This document shows, piece after piece, positions 4,852 through 12,232 of a stretch of 13,603 nt of DNA. Origin of the DNA: Candidatus Igneacidithiobacillus taiwanensis (GTDB lineage Bacteria > Pseudomonadota > Gammaproteobacteria > Acidithiobacillales > Acidithiobacillaceae). The notes under the pieces were generated by a model, which made no database searches, was not told the DNA's origin, and saw only the letters and a list, made by a program, of their open reading frames with translations. Position 1 is the stretch's first letter; the number at the start of each line of letters is the position of its first letter. The stretch lies in NCBI GenBank assembly GCA_002341825.1, contig DDOU01000018.1:24340-37942 (forward strand). Direction: 5' to 3'. A program made the translations under genes and the position numbers.

Positions 4852-5427
4852 TCAAACAAAATCGAGGGTCTCGCTGTCCCAGTCCGCCGCGCGCAGAATC
4901 GTCTGACGGTAATAGCGCAGCTCCTCGATAGACTCGCGAATGTCGCTCAAGGCCTCGTGCCGCTCGGTTTTTTTGAAGCGTGGCAGCTTCGGGTACCAAC
5001 GCACGCTGAGCTCCTTGAGGGTGGAGACATCGATGAGCCGATAGTGAAAAAAGCGCTCGAGCCGCGGCATGTGCTGCGCCAAGAAGCGTCGATCCTGACA
5101 AACGCTATTGCCACAGAGGGGAGAGGTGCCCGGCGTGACATGAGCCTGCAGAAAGTCGAGGGTTTGCGCCTCTACCGCGGCAAGATCAAGACGACTGCTG
5201 CGCACCCGCTCGATGAGGCCCGAGGCGCCGTGGGTGCGTTGATTCCAGTCGTCCATGGCGCGCAGCACGGATTCATCGTGATTGACCGCCAGGACCGGAC
5301 CTTCGCAAATCACCCGCAGCTCGTTGTCGGTTACGATACTGGCAATTTCGAGAATTTGGTCCTGCTGGGGATGCAGCCCGGTCATCTCCAGATCGATCCA
5401 GACGAGGCGTTGACTCTTGGGATCCAT
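4852..5427 (-). CDS. orn: Oligoribonuclease
   Basis: A 3'-to-5' exoribonuclease that finishes RNA decay by degrading very short oligoribonucleotides, including the c-di-GMP breakdown product pGpG. The 191 residues match the family's size. All DEDDh catalytic residues are visible: D12 and E14 in [10 protein letters not shown]112 in [11 protein letters not shown], and H157 and D162 in [14 protein letters not shown]. The ATG at 5427 is preceded by a strong GAGGAGAG ribosome-binding site (5431-5438 on the minus strand). Upstream lies a 12 bp palindrome and then the terminator of the first repeat unit, so orn should have its own promoter between 5428 and about 5476. Its stop is 3 bp from the stop of the convergent small gene. 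Confidence 0.97.
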
Positions 5428-5451
5428 GGGCTCTCCTCAGAAGTTTGTACA

Positions 5452-5463
5452 CATGGTACCATG
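5452..5463. promoter_or_regulatory. Perfect 12 bp palindrome upstream of orn
   Basis: CATGGTACCATG reads the same on both strands and ends 25 bp before the orn start codon, in the only space available for an orn promoter. It could be a regulator-binding site, but nothing here identifies the regulator. The core GGTACC recurs once in each nearby repeat unit (5596-5601 and 5794-5799). Confidence 0.3.
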
Positions 5464-5475
5464 GCAGGGCCCGTA

Positions 5476-5612
5476 TAAAAAAAGACGGGCAAGATGCCCG
5501 TCCAATAGCCGCAAAACAACCGCTACAAACTTTTTGGGTCGCCGGTCTCTGCCGGGTATCCGTATGGGTTACGCTCCGTCTCAATCCGAGATCTGGGTAC
5601 CGCCCTTCATTG
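5476..5612 (-). ncRNA. Candidate small RNA 1 of a tandem pair
   Basis: Inferred minus-strand transcript of about 130-140 nt made from repeat copy 1. Support: a perfect intrinsic terminator at its 3' end, strong conservation with its sibling, small stems that stay intact (CCGG-N6-CCGG at 5542-5555; UAGC/GCUA before the terminator), differences that are almost all transitions, and paired 7-mer boxes where an activator would sit upstream. The 5' end is a guess: the hexamer at the -10 position of this copy (CTAGGC) is poor. No open frame of note lies within it. It matches no RNA family I recognise. Alternative: a non-transcribed palindromic repeat element that happens to look like a terminator. 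Confidence 0.4.
5477..5502 (-). terminator. Intrinsic terminator of repeat copy 1
   Basis: Perfect 7 bp stem GACGGGC (5484-5490) / GCCCGTC (5496-5502) with a 5 nt loop. On the minus strand it is followed directly by seven T (A-run at 5477-5483). It can only act on leftward transcription, so it would stop RNA coming from the repeat before it enters orn. There is no T-run on the plus side. Confidence 0.72.
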
Positions 5613-5632
5613 GTGCCTAGTGTCCGTCTGGA

Positions 5633-5650
5633 TTGTTTCGGGAATATTTC
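5633..5650. promoter_or_regulatory. Paired 7-mer boxes upstream of candidate sRNA 1
   Basis: TTGTTTC (5633-5639) and ATATTTC (5644-5650), 11 bp apart start to start. Read leftward these are GAAATAT then GAAACAA. The 11 bp step suits a tandem-binding OmpR-family regulator. The same pair at the same spacing lies in repeat copy 2, and TTGTTTC recurs before the response regulator gene. Confidence 0.45.
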
Positions 5651-5674
5651 TTACCGGCGGCGGCCTATTCCGAA

Positions 5675-5806
5675 TAAAAAAGACGGGCAAGATGCCCGTC
5701 CAATAGCCGCAAAACAACCGCTACAAACTTTTTGGGTCGCCGGTCTCCGCCGGGTATCCGTATGGGTTACGCTCCGTCTCGATCTGAGGTTTGGGTACCG
5801 CTCCTC
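5675..5806 (-). ncRNA. Candidate small RNA 2 of a tandem pair
   Basis: Inferred minus-strand transcript from repeat copy 2, sibling of the RNA above. Its promoter looks better: a TACATA hexamer (minus strand 5817-5812) lies 13 bp after the inner 7-mer box GAAACAT (5837-5831), with the outer box GAAATAT 11 bp further upstream. A factor of the OmpR/PhoB type could occupy this place of the -35 element. The transcript would start near 5805 and end in the T-run after the hairpin. The core is nearly identical to copy 1, while the 5' quarter differs, so the two RNAs could share a common 3' body and have partly different 5' seeds. Confidence 0.42.
5676..5700 (-). terminator. Intrinsic terminator of repeat copy 2
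   Basis: Same stem, GACGGGC (5682-5688) / GCCCGTC (5694-5700), followed on the minus strand by six T (5681-5676). Two identical leftward terminators 198 bp apart, with no leftward protein gene between them or to their right before 6682, imply that something short is transcribed leftward here. Confidence 0.72.
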
Positions 5807-5830
5807 GTTGCTATGTAGTTTCGGGCGAAA

Positions 5831-5848
5831 ATGTTTCGAGAATATTTC
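5831..5848. promoter_or_regulatory. Paired 7-mer boxes upstream of candidate sRNA 2
   Basis: ATGTTTC (5831-5837) and ATATTTC (5842-5848), again 11 bp apart. Leftward they read GAAATAT-N4-GAAACAT and end 13 bp before the TACATA hexamer. Conservation here (16 of 18) is higher than in the 50 bp between boxes and core, which suggests selection on the boxes themselves. Confidence 0.45.
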
Positions 5849-5949
5849 CTGTTGTAGGGTTACGCTTTTCCCGGGGATGCGGTGTGAATGGCCCCGTGGG
5901 AGCTATCATTCGCAGGGGCAGATCCTCTCGCTGTTCTGCAGGCCCTGGA

Positions 5950-5980
5950 TTGTTTCCCTGACTTGTTTCAGTATTGTTTC
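5950..5980. promoter_or_regulatory. Three TTGTTTC repeats upstream of the response regulator gene
   Basis: TTGTTTC occurs at 5950-5956, 5963-5969 and 5974-5980, with steps of 13 and 11 bp, ending 24 bp before the regulator's ATG at 6005. The spacing and 7-mer size fit tandem binding by an OmpR-type protein, so autoregulation is likely if this is its site. A weak promoter overlaps the boxes (TTGTTT at 5950-5955, 16 bp, TATTGT at 5972-5977). If real, that position would favour self-repression. The rest of 5849-5949 shows only a weak GCCCC/GGGGC inverted repeat. Confidence 0.45.
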
Positions 5981-6004
5981 GGACTCTTCAAAAAAGCGTG
6001 AAGC

Positions 6005-6697
6005 ATGGCGGTTGTACTCCTGGTGGATGACGATTTGCGTTTGTCGCAGATGCTCAAGGGCTACCTCGAGAAGGAGGGCTTTGGCGTATTGCTGGCAGGC
6101 AACGGACAAGAAATGTGGCAGCAACTGCAGACCGGTAGCGTCGATGTCATCGTTCTCGACTGGATGCTGCCGGGGGGCAAAGACGGCATTTCCCTGATTC
6201 GCGAGTTGCGCGCTAAGAAGGCGCCGCCAGTTTTGATGCTCTCCGCCCGGGGTGAGGACGAGGACCGCATCATGGGGCTCGAAAACGGGGTGGACGACTA
6301 TCTCGCCAAGCCTTTCAATGCTCGGGAGCTGCTGGCGCGTCTGCGTGCGCTCTTGCGTCGCCAAGGACGCGAGGAGCCCTCGCCACAATTGCAATTCGGA
6401 CCCTTTCGCCTGGATATGAGCCTGCGCCGGCTCTATCTCAACGATCAGGAGCAGGAAATCAACCCTGCCGAGATGGAGTTGCTCCTGGTGTTTGCCCAGC
6501 GTCCGCGCCGCATTCTTAGCCGCGATACCCTGCTACAGATTCTGGGCGGCGAAGAGGAAGGACGCTTCGATCGTAGCATCGATGTGCGGGTTACGCGGCT
6601 GCGCAAGATCATTGAAGAAAATCCTCGTCAGCCCCGTTACCTACTTACCGAGCGCGGCGTTGGTTATCGCTTCGAACCGGGTCAAGCGGATTCGTAA
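6005..6697 (+). CDS. OmpR-type two-component response regulator
   Basis: A 230-residue DNA-binding response regulator. The receiver domain (1-120) has the acidic pair D8/D9, the phosphorylation site D52 in VIVLDWMLP, S80 and K102 (AKPF). The winged-helix output domain (about 130-226) ends in DRSIDVRVTRLRKIIE and the YLLTERGVGYRF wing. This ending resembles OmpR more than PhoB. It therefore probably controls envelope genes in answer to a sensor kinase, but no kinase gene adjoins it: upstream is the repeat region and downstream is the convergent phosphatase, with a 16 bp overlap. The Shine-Dalgarno before ATG 6005 is weak (GAAG). Three TTGTTTC repeats directly upstream suggest self-regulation. 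The true partner and regulon cannot be told from the window. Confidence 0.92.
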   Translation: MAVVLLVDDDLRLSQMLKGYLEKEGFGVLLAGNGQEMWQQLQTGSVDVIVLDWMLPGGKDGISLIRELRAKKAPPVLMLSARGEDEDRIMGLENGVDDYLAKPFNARELLARLRALLRRQGREEPSPQLQFGPFRLDMSLRRLYLNDQEQEINPAEMELLLVFAQRPRRILSRDTLLQILGGEEEGRFDRSIDVRVTRLRKIIEENPRQPRYLLTERGVGYRFEPGQADS

Positions 6698-8070
6698 CCC
6701 AAATCCTGTCCACTGATGCGGTGTTGCCACAGGACACGTCCTTGCGAGTCTTTACAGCGAACCAAAAGGTGTCGATCCATCCCTTGTCCCTGAAATGTGA
6801 GAGAGCAGTAATTGCGCTCCTCGACCAAAGTCCCGGGAACGCGGTAGGGATTGTGATCGCCCTTGGCGGGCCCAGAGTTGAGGGGAGAACTGGTGATTTC
6901 CCAGAGAGGGTAGTCGTGTTTGCCGCTATAGCGCGGGCGCGGGCGGCGCATGAGCTCGGAAATGTGACGATCACCTGACAAGAAAATCACCCCGCGAATC
7001 TGATTGTCTGCCAGCCAGTCAAGGAATTCTTGTCGCTCCTCTGGGTATAGATTCCAGCCCTCGTAAGCATCATCGTCGTTTAGCATTTGTCCGCCTGCAG
7101 CAATGAATTTGAAGCGGGCATGGGAGCTCAACAAGGCATTTTTTAACCAGTCCAGTTGTGGCTTGCCAAACATGACCTTGCCGCGGGATGCTGCCGCAGC
7201 ATCAGCATCTCGGTACCAGCGATCGTCTAGCAGAAAAAAGTCGGCATCGTAGACCGATTGCTGGGTGAAGACGCCGGGCGTGCCGGGTAGGCCGAAGCTG
7301 GGGTTGGGCCAATAGGCCTGGAAGAGGCGTAGTGCCGCTTCTTTGAACACGAAACTGCTGTCGCTGTCGTTGGGGCCGTAGTCGTGGTCGTCCCAAATGG
7401 CGATCTGTGGAGTGCTATTGAGAAAGCGCTGCAGCGGTGCAAAAGCACGATCAGACCAGTAGCGCAGGGCCATTCCGGCAGGGCTCGCGAAGTCGGCTTC
7501 ACGAAAATATAGGTTATCGCCCAGCCAAATCATGAGATCTGCCTGTTCTCGACGCATGGGTTCGTAGATTTCGTAGCCGCCGCCGTAGGGTTTTCCCGGA
7601 CGATCATAGCGAGGATCGTTGATATAGGCGCAGGACCCCGTCAAGACCGTGAAGTCGGGCGCTGGCGAGCGAAACTTCCAGAGAATTGGGGTTCGCAGGA
7701 GAGGCCCAGAGCTGGGCAAGCCTTGATCGTTGAGGAGGATTTGAGTCTGATAGCGGGTATCCGGTTGTAATTCGTCGAGGACGATACTGGCGGTATAGAA
7801 GTTCCCCGCGTCGGTCTGCACCGTCTCGCTGTGCCGTATCGGGCCCTTGCCATCCAACGCCTGGTAGCGGACTTGCACTTTGGCCGGACCGAAGGTTTGC
7901 AGCCAGATGCTCGCCGAACGGTAGGCCGGATAGCCGAGCATCGGACCGGCATGGAGGCTGCTTGCCGAAGCCGGGAGATCCATGGCCCGAAGCGGTATGG
8001 GACAGATTCCCGCGCCACCCAGAACGAGGCTTTTGCGCAGGAACTCGCGACGTTGTATCAGGTTCTGCAT
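6682..8070 (-). CDS. PhoD-like metallophosphatase, Tat-exported
   Basis: Predicted periplasmic alkaline-phosphatase-D-type phosphomonoesterase or phosphodiesterase (462 residues). The N-terminus carries a twin-arginine signal, RREFLRK (7-13), followed by the hydrophobic SLVLGGAGI. A PhoD N-terminal beta domain (about 40-130) precedes the catalytic domain. Metal-site motifs are TGSCAY with C147, WLGDNLY (D185, N186, Y188), WDDHDYGPND (226-235) and SGDRH (D367, H369). The Cys and Tyr ligands are those known to hold iron in PhoD enzymes, alongside calcium. The ATG at 8070 has a GGAG 6-7 nt upstream. It begins 19 bp after tonB and is the last gene of the receptor-exbB-exbD-tonB operon, which points to release of phosphate in the periplasm for, or from, compounds brought in by the receptor. 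Its 3' end overlaps the response regulator by 16 bp. Confidence 0.88.
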   Translation of the reverse strand: MQNLIQRREFLRKSLVLGGAGICPIPLRAMDLPASASSLHAGPMLGYPAYRSASIWLQTFGPAKVQVRYQALDGKGPIRHSETVQTDAGNFYTASIVLDELQPDTRYQTQILLNDQGLPSSGPLLRTPILWKFRSPAPDFTVLTGSCAYINDPRYDRPGKPYGGGYEIYEPMRREQADLMIWLGDNLYFREADFASPAGMALRYWSDRAFAPLQRFLNSTPQIAIWDDHDYGPNDSDSSFVFKEAALRLFQAYWPNPSFGLPGTPGVFTQQSVYDADFFLLDDRWYRDADAAAASRGKVMFGKPQLDWLKNALLSSHARFKFIAAGGQMLNDDDAYEGWNLYPEERQEFLDWLADNQIRGVIFLSGDRHISELMRRPRPRYSGKHDYPLWEITSSPLNSGPAKGDHNPYRVPGTLVEERNYCSLTFQGQGMDRHLLVRCKDSQGRVLWQHRISGQDLGYESA

Positions 8071-8089: not shown

Positions 8090-8806
8090 TCAGTCGTTGT
8101 CGTGCAAGACGAACTCTACCCAGAGCTCCAACTGGTAGACTTTGCCACGCAACTCTGCCGGAACCGGCGGCAACTGGGCCGAGCGAACGGCAGCCAGTGC
8201 GGCGCTGTCGAAAGCCTCCATACTGCCTTTCTGCAAGATCCGTAAGCCACTGATCTGACCGTTTTGCAGGGTAAAGGCAACCTGCACGCGGCCGCCCTGG
8301 CCTAGCATCCGCGCCGCGTCGGGAAAGTGGACGGCGGCCTGAATAGCCCCCTTGACCTGCGCCAGGTAGTCGGCCTTGACCGCAGGATTGACCGGAGCGG
8401 GAGGTGGCGGCGCCGGTGGCACCACGGGTGCCGGTGGGGCTTGTACGGGGCTTGGCAACGGGCTGGGCGGCAACACTTCCTTGACTGGTGCTGTTTGTGG
8501 CGCCGGGCGCGGCGTTGGTCGTGGCACCGGCTTGGGTACGGGTTTGGGCGTTGGTTTTGGGGTCTCCTTCACCTTTACCGGTTTGGGTGTTGGGGGCGTC
8601 GGCTTAGGCGTTTCTGGCTGTATCAACTGTAGCTGCATGGGCGGCAGCGCCGCCGGTGGCGGCGGCTGCCGTTGCTCGCTCTCCCACACCACCGCGCCGA
8701 TGAGGAGAACCTCTGCGCCGATGGCCAGAGCGAGCGCCAGTGCTTTTTTCGGTCGCGGCTGCTGCCCCTGCAGGATGACCGAGAGGGCGCGAAGATCGGT
8801 GCTCAT
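8090..8806 (-). CDS. tonB: TonB energy-transducing protein
   Basis: Couples the proton motive force harvested by ExbB/ExbD to outer-membrane receptors. The 238 residues show the standard order: a short cytoplasmic start, one membrane anchor (22-41), a long Pro-rich periplasmic rod with many KP/PKP and PxP repeats (about 48-142), and a C-terminal TonB domain (145-238) with FPDAARMLGQGGRVQVAF and the LPPVP turn. The ATG at 8806 is preceded by GAAGGA and lies 5 bp after exbD, so the three genes are co-translated. The anchor contains alanine and leucine stretches, and I do not see the classic SHLS motif. The Pro-rich rod produces a long antisense open frame with Gly repeats that is not a gene. 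Confidence 0.93.
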   Translation of the reverse strand: MSTDLRALSVILQGQQPRPKKALALALAIGAEVLLIGAVVWESEQRQPPPPAALPPMQLQLIQPETPKPTPPTPKPVKVKETPKPTPKPVPKPVPRPTPRPAPQTAPVKEVLPPSPLPSPVQAPPAPVVPPAPPPPAPVNPAVKADYLAQVKGAIQAAVHFPDAARMLGQGGRVQVAFTLQNGQISGLRILQKGSMEAFDSAALAAVRSAQLPPVPAELRGKVYQLELWVEFVLHDND

Positions 8807-8811
8807 TTCCT

Positions 8812-9201
8812 TCAGTTCCCTTTTGCGGCCATACCGATGGCGGTAACGCCCGCTTGTCTGCAGGCATCCATTACCTTGATCAGGGCCTGGATATCGGCGG
8901 TCTTCTCGGCCGCAATCGTCACCTGGGTCGCCGCCGGATCGTGCGCCCGCAGCGCGTTGGTGAGCTCTGATAGACTCACCGTTTTCCCATTCATCTCTAC
9001 ATGGCCATCAGCGTAAAGGTTGAGCACGACCTTGGGCTTGGGCAACTGCTGGGCGGTACTCGAGCCCGGCAGGTTGGACGGCAGCCCCTTGTCGGGGATC
9101 ATGTGGATCGTGATCATGATGAAGAAAATCAGCAAAAACAGCATGATATCAATCATCGGGATGATCTCGACCCGCCCTTTTTTTACCTCTAGGTACTGCA
9201 T
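8812..9201 (-). CDS. exbD: ExbD biopolymer transport protein
   Basis: Inner-membrane partner of ExbB in the TonB-driving proton channel. 129 residues: a short cytoplasmic tail, one transmembrane helix (about 16-36) with the essential aspartate D18 in IIPMIDIMLFLLIFF, and a periplasmic domain to the end. This is the expected size and layout of ExbD/TolR. It starts 3 bp after exbB stops and ends 5 bp before tonB, so it is an ExbD dedicated to this operon and not TolR. The last residues (AIGMAAKGN) correspond to the family's C-terminal strand. Confidence 0.94.
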   Translation of the reverse strand: MQYLEVKKGRVEIIPMIDIMLFLLIFFIMITIHMIPDKGLPSNLPGSSTAQQLPKPKVVLNLYADGHVEMNGKTVSLSELTNALRAHDPAATQVTIAAEKTADIQALIKVMDACRQAGVTAIGMAAKGN

Positions 9202-9204
9202 GGC

Positions 9205-9879
9205 TCAGGCCTCCTGGGCGGCGTAGTACACTGGCTTGGCAGCGTCGACACTGTTACTTACGTGTTGCAACCCCTCCAGACGGTTGGTCAGCATGGTGCG
9301 CAAGGTTTCCATTTGATGGACTACCAGGCGCATGCGGTTATGCAGCCCGTTGAAGGTGACCAAGCCGATGATGGCGATGACCAGACCCGACGCTGTTGCC
9401 AGTAATGCCTCCGCAACATTGCCGGTAATGGCCGTGGGGTTGTTGCTGACGTTGTCGAGGACCTGGAAGGCGTGGAACATACCGATGATGGTTCCCAAAA
9501 GACCCAGAAGCGGGGCAAGAGTGACCGTGGTGTCGAGAATCCACAAGCCACGATCGAGAGTCGGCACCTGGCGCATCACGGTTTCTTGGAGAATGTCCGA
9601 TAGGCGCGCGCTGTCGCGTAACTGTGGGTAACGCACTGGCACTTCCAATAGCGCCTTGAAGGGAGCGGGAGTACTGTCTGCCAGCTCTTTTAGTTGCGGA
9701 CCCTGCAAGTTGGGGAGAGCGTCGATGGCCTGTGCAGTTTGTTCCCCAAGATGGGTCATACGATTCAGGTAGAGAAAGCGTTCAAAGCTCACCCAGAGTA
9801 CGATAAAAAGCAGAATAGGCATCAAATACAGCACACCGCCGCTTTCTGCGGCAATTTTTGCGAGTTCACCGAGATTCAT
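9205..9879 (-). CDS. exbB: ExbB proton channel protein
   Basis: Pentameric MotA/TolQ/ExbB-family channel protein that energises TonB. 224 residues with three transmembrane segments: TM1 15-36, TM2 about 112-138 (TLAPLLGLLGTIIGMF) and TM3 about 155-178 (EALLATASGLVIAI). The conserved channel threonines match T130 and T162. The ATG at 9879 has AGGA 7 nt upstream. The gap of 50 bp to the receptor stop is larger than the others in the operon and holds a strong hairpin, so exbB may be expressed at a lower level than the receptor. The start is inside the MotA/ExbB family's usual length range. Confidence 0.94.
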   Translation of the reverse strand: MNLGELAKIAAESGGVLYLMPILLFIVLWVSFERFLYLNRMTHLGEQTAQAIDALPNLQGPQLKELADSTPAPFKALLEVPVRYPQLRDSARLSDILQETVMRQVPTLDRGLWILDTTVTLAPLLGLLGTIIGMFHAFQVLDNVSNNPTAITGNVAEALLATASGLVIAIIGLVTFNGLHNRMRLVVHQMETLRTMLTNRLEGLQHVSNSVDAAKPVYYAAQEA

Positions 9880-9899
9880 CGAACTGTCCTTGCGTATGC

Positions 9900-9917
9900 G
9901 GGCCGCCGCAGCGGCCC
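9900..9917 (-). other. Strong GC hairpin between receptor gene and exbB
   Basis: Perfect 7 bp stem GGGCCGC / GCGGCCC around the 4 nt loop TGCG (minus-strand reading), 13 bp after the receptor stop codon and 20 bp before exbB. No T-run follows, so it is not a standard terminator. In operons with unequal protein needs such stems usually protect the 3' end of the upstream message or pause transcription. That would suit a receptor needed in larger amounts than ExbB. Confidence 0.5.
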
Positions 9918-9929
9918 AATTGGGATGAC

Positions 9930-12134
9930 TTAGAAAGTGGCATCGAGACCTGCGTAGACATTGAACGGCAGATTCAACTTTTGGTACGGGTTGCTGCTGC
10001 TACCGGTGTACGACTGAATGAAACGCCGATCGAACAGATTGTTGAGATGGAGAGAGGCGGTAACTTTCTTGAACCCAAGCCGTTCTCCCAGGGGTGCGTT
10101 ACGGAAGGTATACTGCAGGCTCATGTTGCTGTAGAAACGGCTCCCCAAAGGCAAGAATTTGCCGCCCAAATTGTAGTACGAGTTACCCATTTCATTGAAG
10201 GAGATGGTGCCACGAAAGCCATGATAGCGGCCAATGAAGCCCACCGACTCCGTATGATGCGGCGCATAAGGAAAGGGTTGATTGGACGACGTCAGGCGCG
10301 CATCGAGGATACCGAAGTTGGCATAGGCGCTAAACATATCGTTGAGCACGACGTTGTTCTGCCAAGAGATGCCCTGGTTTATGGCCTTGCCAGCATTGGC
10401 AAGCACCGTCTGGTTGAAGGAGCCGACAAGAACGGTGGTGCTCAAGATGTAGTTAGAGAAATCTACCCGGAAGGCTTGTAGTTGCGAGGTCCAGGGGCCA
10501 ACCTCCCAATTGGTACCAAAAGTGTACGTCTTTGCACTCTGGGGCTTCAGGTTGGGATTGTAGGTTCCGGTATAAAACTGGTTGTATCCAGGTGGATTGC
10601 TGTTTTCCGTGTAGTTAAAATAGGCGTGCCAATTGGGCAGAATGCGGAGATTCGCGCCCACCGAGGGTAGGACCGAGGAAAAATTGACATTGAATTGTCC
10701 CGGAAGCTTCCGGGCCAAGGCCACGTCGTCGACAAAGCTGCGCTCCGCATACAGGTATTTGACGCCAGCCGTCAGGCGAAGGGCGTCGATAGGTTTATAA
10801 TTGAAGACGAGATAAGGTTCATAGGTGTCAGTTACCACGGGCTCGTAGTAATTTGCGCCTACATAGGTATTGGCCAAACTATAATAGTTGGCCGCATGCA
10901 ACGTATTATTATGATTGAACCAAAACCCGACTTCGGTATCCACCGGCCCGAGCGGGAAAAGAAGGCGAGCAATATTGCCCCAGCGATGTGTCAAGTTCAC
11001 GCTCTGCCGTAGTAGAGCGCCGCCATAATTACGCGGATTGGCAGAAATAATCGTGCCAGCAGGTGTCAACAACGTAGTGTTGAATGTGGTAGCCCCGGCA
11101 CCAAAGCCGTTGCCATAGTAATAGTAGAGCTGGTCAGAAAAATGCACCGCGCCGAGCTGGCCCTCATATTTGGCGTACCCGAGCCAGTTGAGATAGTTGT
11201 TGTAATTGAATCCGGTGTAATTAGTGTTGATGGTGCCATTGGGGTTGTACAGATTGCTGGTATAGCTATTGTAATCCTGACCAAACTGGGCGATTTGTGT
11301 AGGGGTGGCGCCATTGTAATAATTGAAGCGCTGATTGTTCTGGGTAAAGAACAGGGTGAGATCACCAGGGCCAACGTGGGTGACGGATTTGAAAAGAAAC
11401 TGGGTCTGAATTGCGCCATTGTTTTGAAAATAACCATCGCGCTGGATTTTATTCATATAAATCCAGGCAGAGGTTGGTGCGACATTTTTGGCAAACAGCC
11501 CGGTATTGATCAGGCCGCCGTAATTGTATTTGCCGAACGATCCGCCGCCAACGATCGGGCGCACCATAGGGAACGGTGAGGGCTGCAGACTATTGGTGGC
11601 AAAGGCGCCGCCGAATGCAGCCAGGCCCGGCAAAGCGGCAGATTCTGCGCCAGGGTAATACTTGGCATTGGCCACGAGCACCGAGGGGATGAATTCGTTG
11701 GTGTAGTAGGTGTAGCTATCGTTGTCGTTGAGGGGAATTCCGTCGAGAGTGAAATTGATCAGCGACTTGCTGAAGCCGTTGATGTAGACATCGTCGCCAT
11801 CCATGCTATCGCCGCTGCTGACCACCATGGCATTGGGCAGGTTGTTGAGGGCTTGCGTATAGGAGTCGGTCGGCGTGAGCATGTCGAACTGACCCTTGGT
11901 GATGGTGGTCTCCTGGTTGGTGGCGGTCTTGTCGAACTTCTGCACTTGCTGGATGTCCGACGCAGGGGTGTGACCGACGTTGACCTTGGGTGTAGCGCCA
12001 AAAAAACCTGTGGAACCGCTACTAGCAGTACCGGTTACGGTCCCTAGGGACTGGGTATCGGCATGGGCGGCAGTCTGGGTCAAAAACAGCAGGGCTGCCG
12101 AGACAGAAAGGCTCAAAGGCTTGCTTGCTTTCAT
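9930..12134 (-). CDS. TonB-dependent outer-membrane receptor
   Basis: Gated 22-strand barrel that imports a scarce nutrient across the outer membrane. From the ATG at 12134 the protein has 734 residues and begins with a clear signal peptide (MKASKPLSLS..., cleavage after AHA at 25). LGTVTGTA shortly after it may be the TonB box. The plug domain (about 75-180) includes VYINGFSKSLINFTLDGIP, and the C-terminus ends in ...YAGLDATF with the terminal Phe needed for barrel insertion. The barrel is rich in Asn, Tyr and Gly, and I see no cysteine. GGAG (12144-12141) with 6 nt spacing sets the start; longer in-frame starts at 12146 or 12209 lack a ribosome-binding site and would bury the signal peptide. 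The ligand is unknown. The Pho-box-like repeat upstream and phoD downstream favour a phosphorus compound over an iron chelate. Confidence 0.9.
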   Translation of the reverse strand: MKASKPLSLSVSAALLFLTQTAAHADTQSLGTVTGTASSGSTGFFGATPKVNVGHTPASDIQQVQKFDKTATNQETTITKGQFDMLTPTDSYTQALNNLPNAMVVSSGDSMDGDDVYINGFSKSLINFTLDGIPLNDNDSYTYYTNEFIPSVLVANAKYYPGAESAALPGLAAFGGAFATNSLQPSPFPMVRPIVGGGSFGKYNYGGLINTGLFAKNVAPTSAWIYMNKIQRDGYFQNNGAIQTQFLFKSVTHVGPGDLTLFFTQNNQRFNYYNGATPTQIAQFGQDYNSYTSNLYNPNGTINTNYTGFNYNNYLNWLGYAKYEGQLGAVHFSDQLYYYYGNGFGAGATTFNTTLLTPAGTIISANPRNYGGALLRQSVNLTHRWGNIARLLFPLGPVDTEVGFWFNHNNTLHAANYYSLANTYVGANYYEPVVTDTYEPYLVFNYKPIDALRLTAGVKYLYAERSFVDDVALARKLPGQFNVNFSSVLPSVGANLRILPNWHAYFNYTENSNPPGYNQFYTGTYNPNLKPQSAKTYTFGTNWEVGPWTSQLQAFRVDFSNYILSTTVLVGSFNQTVLANAGKAINQGISWQNNVVLNDMFSAYANFGILDARLTSSNQPFPYAPHHTESVGFIGRYHGFRGTISFNEMGNSYYNLGGKFLPLGSRFYSNMSLQYTFRNAPLGERLGFKKVTASLHLNNLFDRRFIQSYTGSSSNPYQKLNLPFNVYAGLDATF

Positions 12135-12175
12135 GATACGCTCCATATCAAGGGTGACGAGGTTCGCGGCACCGA

Positions 12176-12196
12176 GATCGATGGCATAGATCGATC
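12176..12196 (-). other. Hairpin in the receptor mRNA leader
   Basis: GATCGAT (12176-12182) and ATCGATC (12190-12196) form a 7 bp stem with a 7 nt loop, 41 nt before the receptor start codon and inside the predicted leader of about 90 nt. It does not cover the ribosome-binding site. It may affect message stability or small-RNA access, but there is no direct evidence. Confidence 0.35.
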
Positions 12197-12232
12197 CGTA
12201 ATAAGTCATAGAGGCTACCAGGAAATTGTTTC

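Follow-up and report, generated by a model that had tools for sequence, protein, structure and literature searches.

Which product, if any, is encoded by a sequence unit that occurs twice in the 577-base gap between orn (4852–5427, minus strand) and a response regulator (RR) gene (6005–6697, plus strand) of Candidatus Igneacidithiobacillus taiwanensis? We studied this locus in a window of 13,603 nucleotides, the whole stretch of DNA analyzed here, from genome assembly G000, which is 70% complete, falls within Acidithiobacillaceae and yielded no copies other than the two in the window. A preliminary description had proposed tandem sibling small RNA (sRNA) genes that arose by duplication. Promoter geometry, a common 3′ core, terminator covariation, a fixed genomic location and a body that varies between copies support this proposal, and two predicted sibling trans-acting sRNA genes are, judged from sequence, the best explanation of the units. 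The per-copy regulator box, the RR as likely controller, the family-wide distribution and the dispersed 3′ modules reported below had not been mentioned in that description.

Tandem units between orn and the RR gene

The copies occupy 5478–5650 and 5676–5848 on the minus strand and align without gaps at a spacing of 198 (88% identity over 173 nt; 20 of 173 positions differ when numbered from the box). An identical 9-pair hairpin with a T-run closes each copy on this strand (5503–5483 and 5701–5681). Alignment and terminator scan thus bear out the ungapped duplication with its repeated terminator. We found two terminator-like sites in the region, compared with 0.9 expected in shuffles of it, and the 46-nt string of core plus terminator has exactly two occurrences in the window and none in 200 shuffles. 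The transcript body is nearly identical, as had been claimed, with one difference in the final 105 positions, and we see no sign of a leftward protein gene from orn up to the PhoD-like gene at 6682–8070. The differences just outside the body had been described as transitions without exception, which holds for the seven at positions 42–68; further upstream, transversions appear. The single difference within the body had been placed in a predicted loop, a suggestion that we cannot confirm as meaningful, as the alignment of 46 copies supports hairpins at the 3′ end only. The features of the region are as follows.

4852–5427, minus: orn (oligoribonuclease), syntenic neighbor (protein models, family synteny)
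5453–5458, minus: −10-like hexamer TACCAT, lying past the last terminator and ahead of orn, interpreted as the promoter of orn itself (comparison of 17 stretches)
5477–5611, minus: sRNA copy 1, orn-proximal, predicted transcript of ∼135 nt (alignment, promoter geometry, terminator)
5477–5503, minus: terminator hairpin and T-run of copy 1 (terminator scan, RNAalifold)
5502–5528, minus: 3′ core of copy 1 (family comparison, alignment)
5619–5624, minus: −10-like hexamer of copy 1, GACACT (A and T positions invariant in 47/47 copies)
5631–5650, minus: box of copy 1, GAAATATTCCCGAAACAATC (pattern search in window and genome-wide)
5676–5809, minus: sRNA copy 2, RR-proximal, predicted transcript of ∼134 nt (alignment, promoter geometry, terminator)
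5676–5701, minus: terminator hairpin and T-run of copy 2 (terminator scan, RNAalifold)
5700–5726, minus: 3′ core of copy 2 (family comparison, alignment)
5817–5822, minus: −10-like hexamer of copy 2, GAAACT (alignment of full-length copies)
5829–5848, minus: box of copy 2, GAAATATTCTCGAAACATTT (pattern search in window and genome-wide)
5951–5980, minus: third box region with three half-sites, beside the RR start (half-site search; short siblings in five other genomes)
6005–6697, plus: OmpR-family RR, divergent from the array, likely activator (protein models, alignment to OmpR, ortholog comparison)

The 5′ ends of both transcripts were placed by inference, 7–9 nt past the −10.

A match to the orn-proximal copy is present in 28 of 29 Acidithiobacillaceae genomes (the own genome included) and in 0 of 28 genomes outside the family; the sole family genome without a match (G005) is 61% complete. 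The order RR, one to three copies, orn is found in one stretch in 24 genomes. The same order holds for G004, whose core has diverged, and for G021, where it is spread over two stretches; in G018 and G028 contig ends interrupt the locus. An exact scan with a 22-nt part of the core over one genome per species (84,980 species) returned 22 stretches, which belong to Acidithiobacillus, Igneacidithiobacillus or Proteobacteria MAGs. A covariance search of related genomes had been recommended in the preliminary description; our model R1, run over 185 genomes drawn from the class under strict filters, scored the own copies at 122 and 119 bits. Matches in five other genomes (23–31 bits, E-values of 8.8e-5 to 0.0075) were judged to be chance, the best one (G178) lying between two metabolic genes, and the sister-family genomes G029 and G030 gave no match to R1. 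We located full units exclusively in the orn–RR gap and not scattered as untranscribed palindromes, the situation that had been named as speaking against sRNA genes. Rfam at its gathering score returned no match on the window, and viral and plasmid collections contained no match to the sRNA.

We counted 53 copies in 28 genomes, five of them of a short type, after seven core-like rows with box scores of 14–19 had been dropped as chance. A tree built from the full-length copies (47 sequences), which is weak given only some 150 nt, splits the siblings of genus g2 into two groups; those of G003, G006 and G007 mostly group by genome, and the window copies interleave with those of G001. The two copies of G001 are 4.5 kb apart (L053 4434–8945), with inserted genes between them, one of which has a DUF4357 domain. 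G002, G003, G007, G010 and G013 have a third, short sibling, lacking the 5′ block, next to the RR gene; at this place the window retains box half-sites (5951–5980) and has no core.

Conserved ends of the predicted RNA, box and candidate regulator

According to the alignment of 46 copies, the body of a copy comprises a 5′ stretch around GGTACCCAAACC, GGAGCG and then a variable middle with many indels. Of the 47 full-length copies, this alignment (A1) includes all but L008:1267, and the five short copies are not part of it; L007:1465 and L026:1738 were trimmed by hand past the terminator because their T-run is interrupted. The 5′ block ACCCAAAC is kept in most aligned copies, and the 3′ core, TTGTAGCGGTTGTTTTGCGGCTATTRG, contains a 16-nt stretch, GTTTTGCGGCTATTRG, that is kept in 46/46. 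RNAalifold returned two hairpins for the 46 copies, both 3′. Five of the nine pairs in the terminator stem have compensatory changes (both sides changed, pairing kept). The core hairpin has no compensatory change in this alignment, and at several of its pairs one or two copies lose the pairing. Folding single sequences gave no advantage over shuffles (z from −0.13 to −0.70). In G012 and G009 (L028, L029), the GTAGCGGTTG part of the core is repeated just upstream of the core, and the RR gene is located more than 1 kb from the core.

Every copy whose upstream sequence is available (52/52; L023, truncated by a contig end, does not enter the box counts) is preceded by a GAAAYA-N5-GAAAYA box, which reads GAAATANTCYNGAAAYA in the 47 full-length copies. 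Our script took the best-scoring site within 260 bases, and exact half-sites were then seen in every copy. The pattern occurs three times in the window, always in the orn–RR gap, with 0.01 occurrences expected. Scanning 30 whole genomes with a longer form of the box and up to one mismatch, we obtained 33 matches, of which 29 are at arrays (one presumed, in G018, where the array is split across contigs), three at other sites of family genomes and one in a genome from a different family. As a control, the reversed pattern gave 0 matches in 19 family genomes and 2 in 11 others. Two of the 19 family genomes have no box match: G005, in which no array was found, and G011, whose box has two differences. 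One of the three non-array matches in family genomes (L149, minus strand, G007:C1:506139–506158) lies upstream of the possible start of a protein with a signal-peptide-like N terminus (by eye), and the gene behind it is a possible further target of the RR.

A −10-like hexamer is located at box positions 27–32. A28 and T32, which correspond to the two key positions of a sigma-70 −10 element, are invariant in 47/47 full-length copies with no gap, and neighboring positions vary. Their set distance from the box suggests that the box takes the place of a −35 element. A simple sigma-70 promoter scan of 5300–6100 found no promoter, so the promoter argument rests on conservation. The window hexamers match three of six consensus positions; such poor −10s would fit activator-dependent promoters, yet also count against the promoter reading.

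The RR is best matched by the OmpR model of NCBIfam (229 bits, below the cut-off of 331) and shares 45% sequence identity with E. coli OmpR, with the phosphorylated-Asp stretch and the recognition region aligned. We rejected an orthologous relationship, as another gene is closer to E. coli OmpR in 7/7 array-bearing genomes searched (56% identity for the closer relative in the own genome); by these comparisons the array RR is a paralogue, not an orthologue, of OmpR. An EnvZ-like kinase, which scores 194 bits with the EnvZ model (cut-off 415, not reached), is encoded directly behind the RR gene in 3 of 11 genomes (G014, G022 and G023). Its orthologues are present in 11/11 genomes searched, in eight of them far from the RR gene or on another contig, and that of G010 has a stop within. 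The own genome contains such a kinase (G000:C74, L148 1263–2618; 57%), with the next kinase far weaker, and the EnvZ-like kinase is the probable partner of the array RR. The own-genome kinase gene is found beside a thioredoxin-like gene (by eye), away from the presumed RR partner.

OmpR boxes elsewhere are built on a GxxxC motif, according to PMC10342277, and the GAAAC half-site fits this motif. The proposed link between RR and box draws on neighborhood and half-site form. In 10/10 genomes examined, the sRNA strand has half-sites at a distance of 21–85 bases from the RR start (paired in 9), which makes RR autoregulation via this box plausible. The third box region of the window (5951–5980) is possibly such an autoregulation site or the remnant of a third short sibling's promoter.

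Proposed mode of action and alternatives

We propose, with a probability of about 0.7, that each copy is activated by the phosphorylated RR at a box of its own and that the products are Hfq-type base-pairing sRNAs of ∼135 nt. The phosphorylated RR would bind the two half-sites of a copy's box, which would replace the −35 element, and would recruit RNA polymerase to the weak −10; each copy would be switched on separately, and its RNA of ∼135 nt would stop at the terminator. Less surely, the RNA would bind Hfq at its U-rich 3′ end and regulate mRNAs by pairing with them via ACCCAAAC in its 5′ part or via the 3′ core. Having more than one copy may provide dosage, their diverged 5′ and middle parts may give the siblings separate targets, and through the box beside its start the RR would also control its own gene. 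The general marks of Hfq-class intergenic sRNAs, an own promoter and an intrinsic terminator in an intergenic place, are present as predicted elements. Hfq itself is encoded in 18 of 19 family genomes and was not detected in the own genome, which is incomplete. PMC13029372 states, with reference to another work, that Hfq from A. caldus can complement an hfq deletion in E. coli.

Pairing with TonB-receptor and OmpA-domain starts gave z below −2 in 8 of 120 pairs, none repeated for one gene across genomes. The 60 loci used comprise 30 of 50 TonB-receptor and 30 of 53 OmpA-domain matches, namely those listed as loci, and a script guessed their start codons; this result, of low power given guessed starts and few genes, weakens the case for outer-membrane targets. 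No signal was detected for pairing with RR or orn starts (mean z of 0.14 and 0.07, respectively). In 6 of 8 genomes, TonB receptor genes are located no more than 8 kb from the array, only a hint as to targets. In the window, a cluster of TonB, ExbD/ExbB-like and TonB-dependent receptor genes is found near the array at 8090–12209.

Array and orn share a strand, and the last T-run ends ∼50 bases before the orn start. The units could thus form an orn leader or attenuator, with RR-driven transcripts mostly stopping at the terminators and partial read-through setting orn expression. However, 16 of the 17 stretches listed have a TANNNT hexamer past the last terminator and ahead of orn (the 17th, L069, used a wrong orn start), a leader needs no repeated, complete box-body-terminator units, and RR-proximal copies have a body no less clearly marked than that of the last copy; we regard a leader as improbable, although some read-through may occur. 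Titration of CsrA/RsmA in the manner of RsmY/Z, in place of mRNA pairing, would suit the combination of a two-component system and sibling RNAs devoted to it. By our own count the window copies contain 4–5 GGA, one GGAG is nearly invariant in the alignment, and the post appears open in A. caldus, for which PMC13029372 reports that no Csr-family sRNA has been found. This idea was rejected on the GGA counts, which do not exceed those of dinucleotide shuffles over the 46 copies (mean 2.76, range 1–6, versus 2.68), and appears very unlikely to us.

Boxes and 3′ end are the best conserved parts of the array, as might be expected if it consisted mainly of DNA binding sites and terminators that insulate or fine-tune the RR and orn promoters, with the RNAs as by-products. 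The invariance of GTTTTGCGGCTATTRG in 46/46 aligned copies is beyond what a terminator needs, though, and together with the retention of the 5′ block ACCCAAAC in most copies it leaves this interpretation little credit. We also considered a repeat protein on the plus strand, given that 198 is divisible by 3 and that ORF 5445–6197 runs in frame through both copies and is open for 250 codons. Core spacings elsewhere are often no multiple of 3 (e.g. 217, 211, 257 and 254), bodies contain indels of many lengths, and the ORF enters the RR gene in another frame, all of which render a protein product scarcely credible.

Dispersed 3′ modules and known sibling sRNAs

GCGGTTG followed by TTTTGCGGCTATT is present at seven scattered sites distributed over six genomes, at one site with a mismatch; neither the 5′ block nor the box accompanies it.

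L060 1876–1902, minus: dispersed core, ssb beside (Pfam)
L061 1887–1913, minus: dispersed core, sigma factor beside (Pfam)
L062 2007–2033, plus: dispersed core and terminator behind a gene
L063 1958–1984, plus: dispersed core, ssb and PLD-like protein beside (Pfam)
L064 1968–1994, minus: dispersed core and terminator behind a gene
L065 2022–2048, minus: dispersed core and terminator behind a gene
L066 780–806, plus: dispersed core and terminator behind a gene

A hairpin and a T-run come next in 7/7 (by eye), and R1 matches all seven; the hairpins are unlike those of the arrays. A same-strand reading frame ends up to 80 bases upstream of each module or just inside the core. Several modules are directly followed by a ribosome-binding site and the next gene, and an attenuator role is possible at these places. 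Their surroundings are mobile-element-like by gene content, from a Pfam search covering L060–L063 (ssb, PLD-like, sigma factor) and from a methylase and others recognized by eye. Compared with plasmids, the L063 cluster has nine matches, to ssb only, the best in A. caldus (68%), and the L065 cluster has none; the core is absent from the two A. caldus stretches inspected. Five places with the 13-mer only (L143–L147), in or beside reading frames and without the GCGGTTG prefix, were taken to be chance occurrences. Any one of three things would account for the dispersed module: a common binding site for Hfq or some other protein, a seed in common, or mimicry. A speculative and rather doubtful extension is that the 3′ module (GCGGUUGUUUUGCGGCUAUU plus any intrinsic terminator) is a portable RNA element, carried by mobile elements whose transcripts would mimic, titrate or plug into the RR-controlled sRNA network of the host.

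Among known systems, the array resembles OmrA/OmrB of Enterobacteriaceae in design, and its sequence matches no Rfam family. OmrA and OmrB are tandem siblings with alike 5′ and 3′ ends, under EnvZ/OmpR control and Hfq-dependent, according to PMC4211561. The array likewise consists of tandem siblings, for which we infer OmpR-class control and, less surely, Hfq binding. Across the family the 3′ core and 5′ block are common to the copies and the middle is variable, but in the window the middle is nearly identical too. In contrast to OmrA/OmrB, the array is unrelated in sequence, is flanked by orn and the RR gene rather than by aas and galR as in E. coli, has as presumed controller an OmpR paralogue encoded next to it, and comprises one to three copies with predicted RNAs of 134–135 nt in the window (OmrA/OmrB, 88 and 82 nt). 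GacA has sites nearly confined to sibling sRNA genes (RsmY/RsmZ), and the box described here is nearly confined to sibling sRNA arrays; RsmY/RsmZ and CsrB differ from the array in that the regulator here is OmpR-class and not GacA-class, GGA is not enriched and the siblings are in tandem. PrrF1 and PrrF2 of Pseudomonas aeruginosa are under Fur control with iron targets, unlike the array, which has no Rfam match. As described in PMC4211561, they are tandem, near-identical siblings with possible read-through products, and in tandem arrangement and near-identity the array siblings are similar. We found no description of the array in open-access titles and abstract beginnings of the Acidithiobacillus sRNA literature, subscription journals lying outside this scope.

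The occurrence of the same 3′ RNA module in mobile-element-like clusters poses a puzzle. If our proposal is correct, the array would, apart from OmrA/OmrB, be a case of an OmpR-class regulator for which an sRNA array forms nearly the only visible set of sites. It would define a family-wide sRNA circuit in extreme acidophiles used in bioleaching, complete with regulator, probable kinase, binding site and RNA ends.
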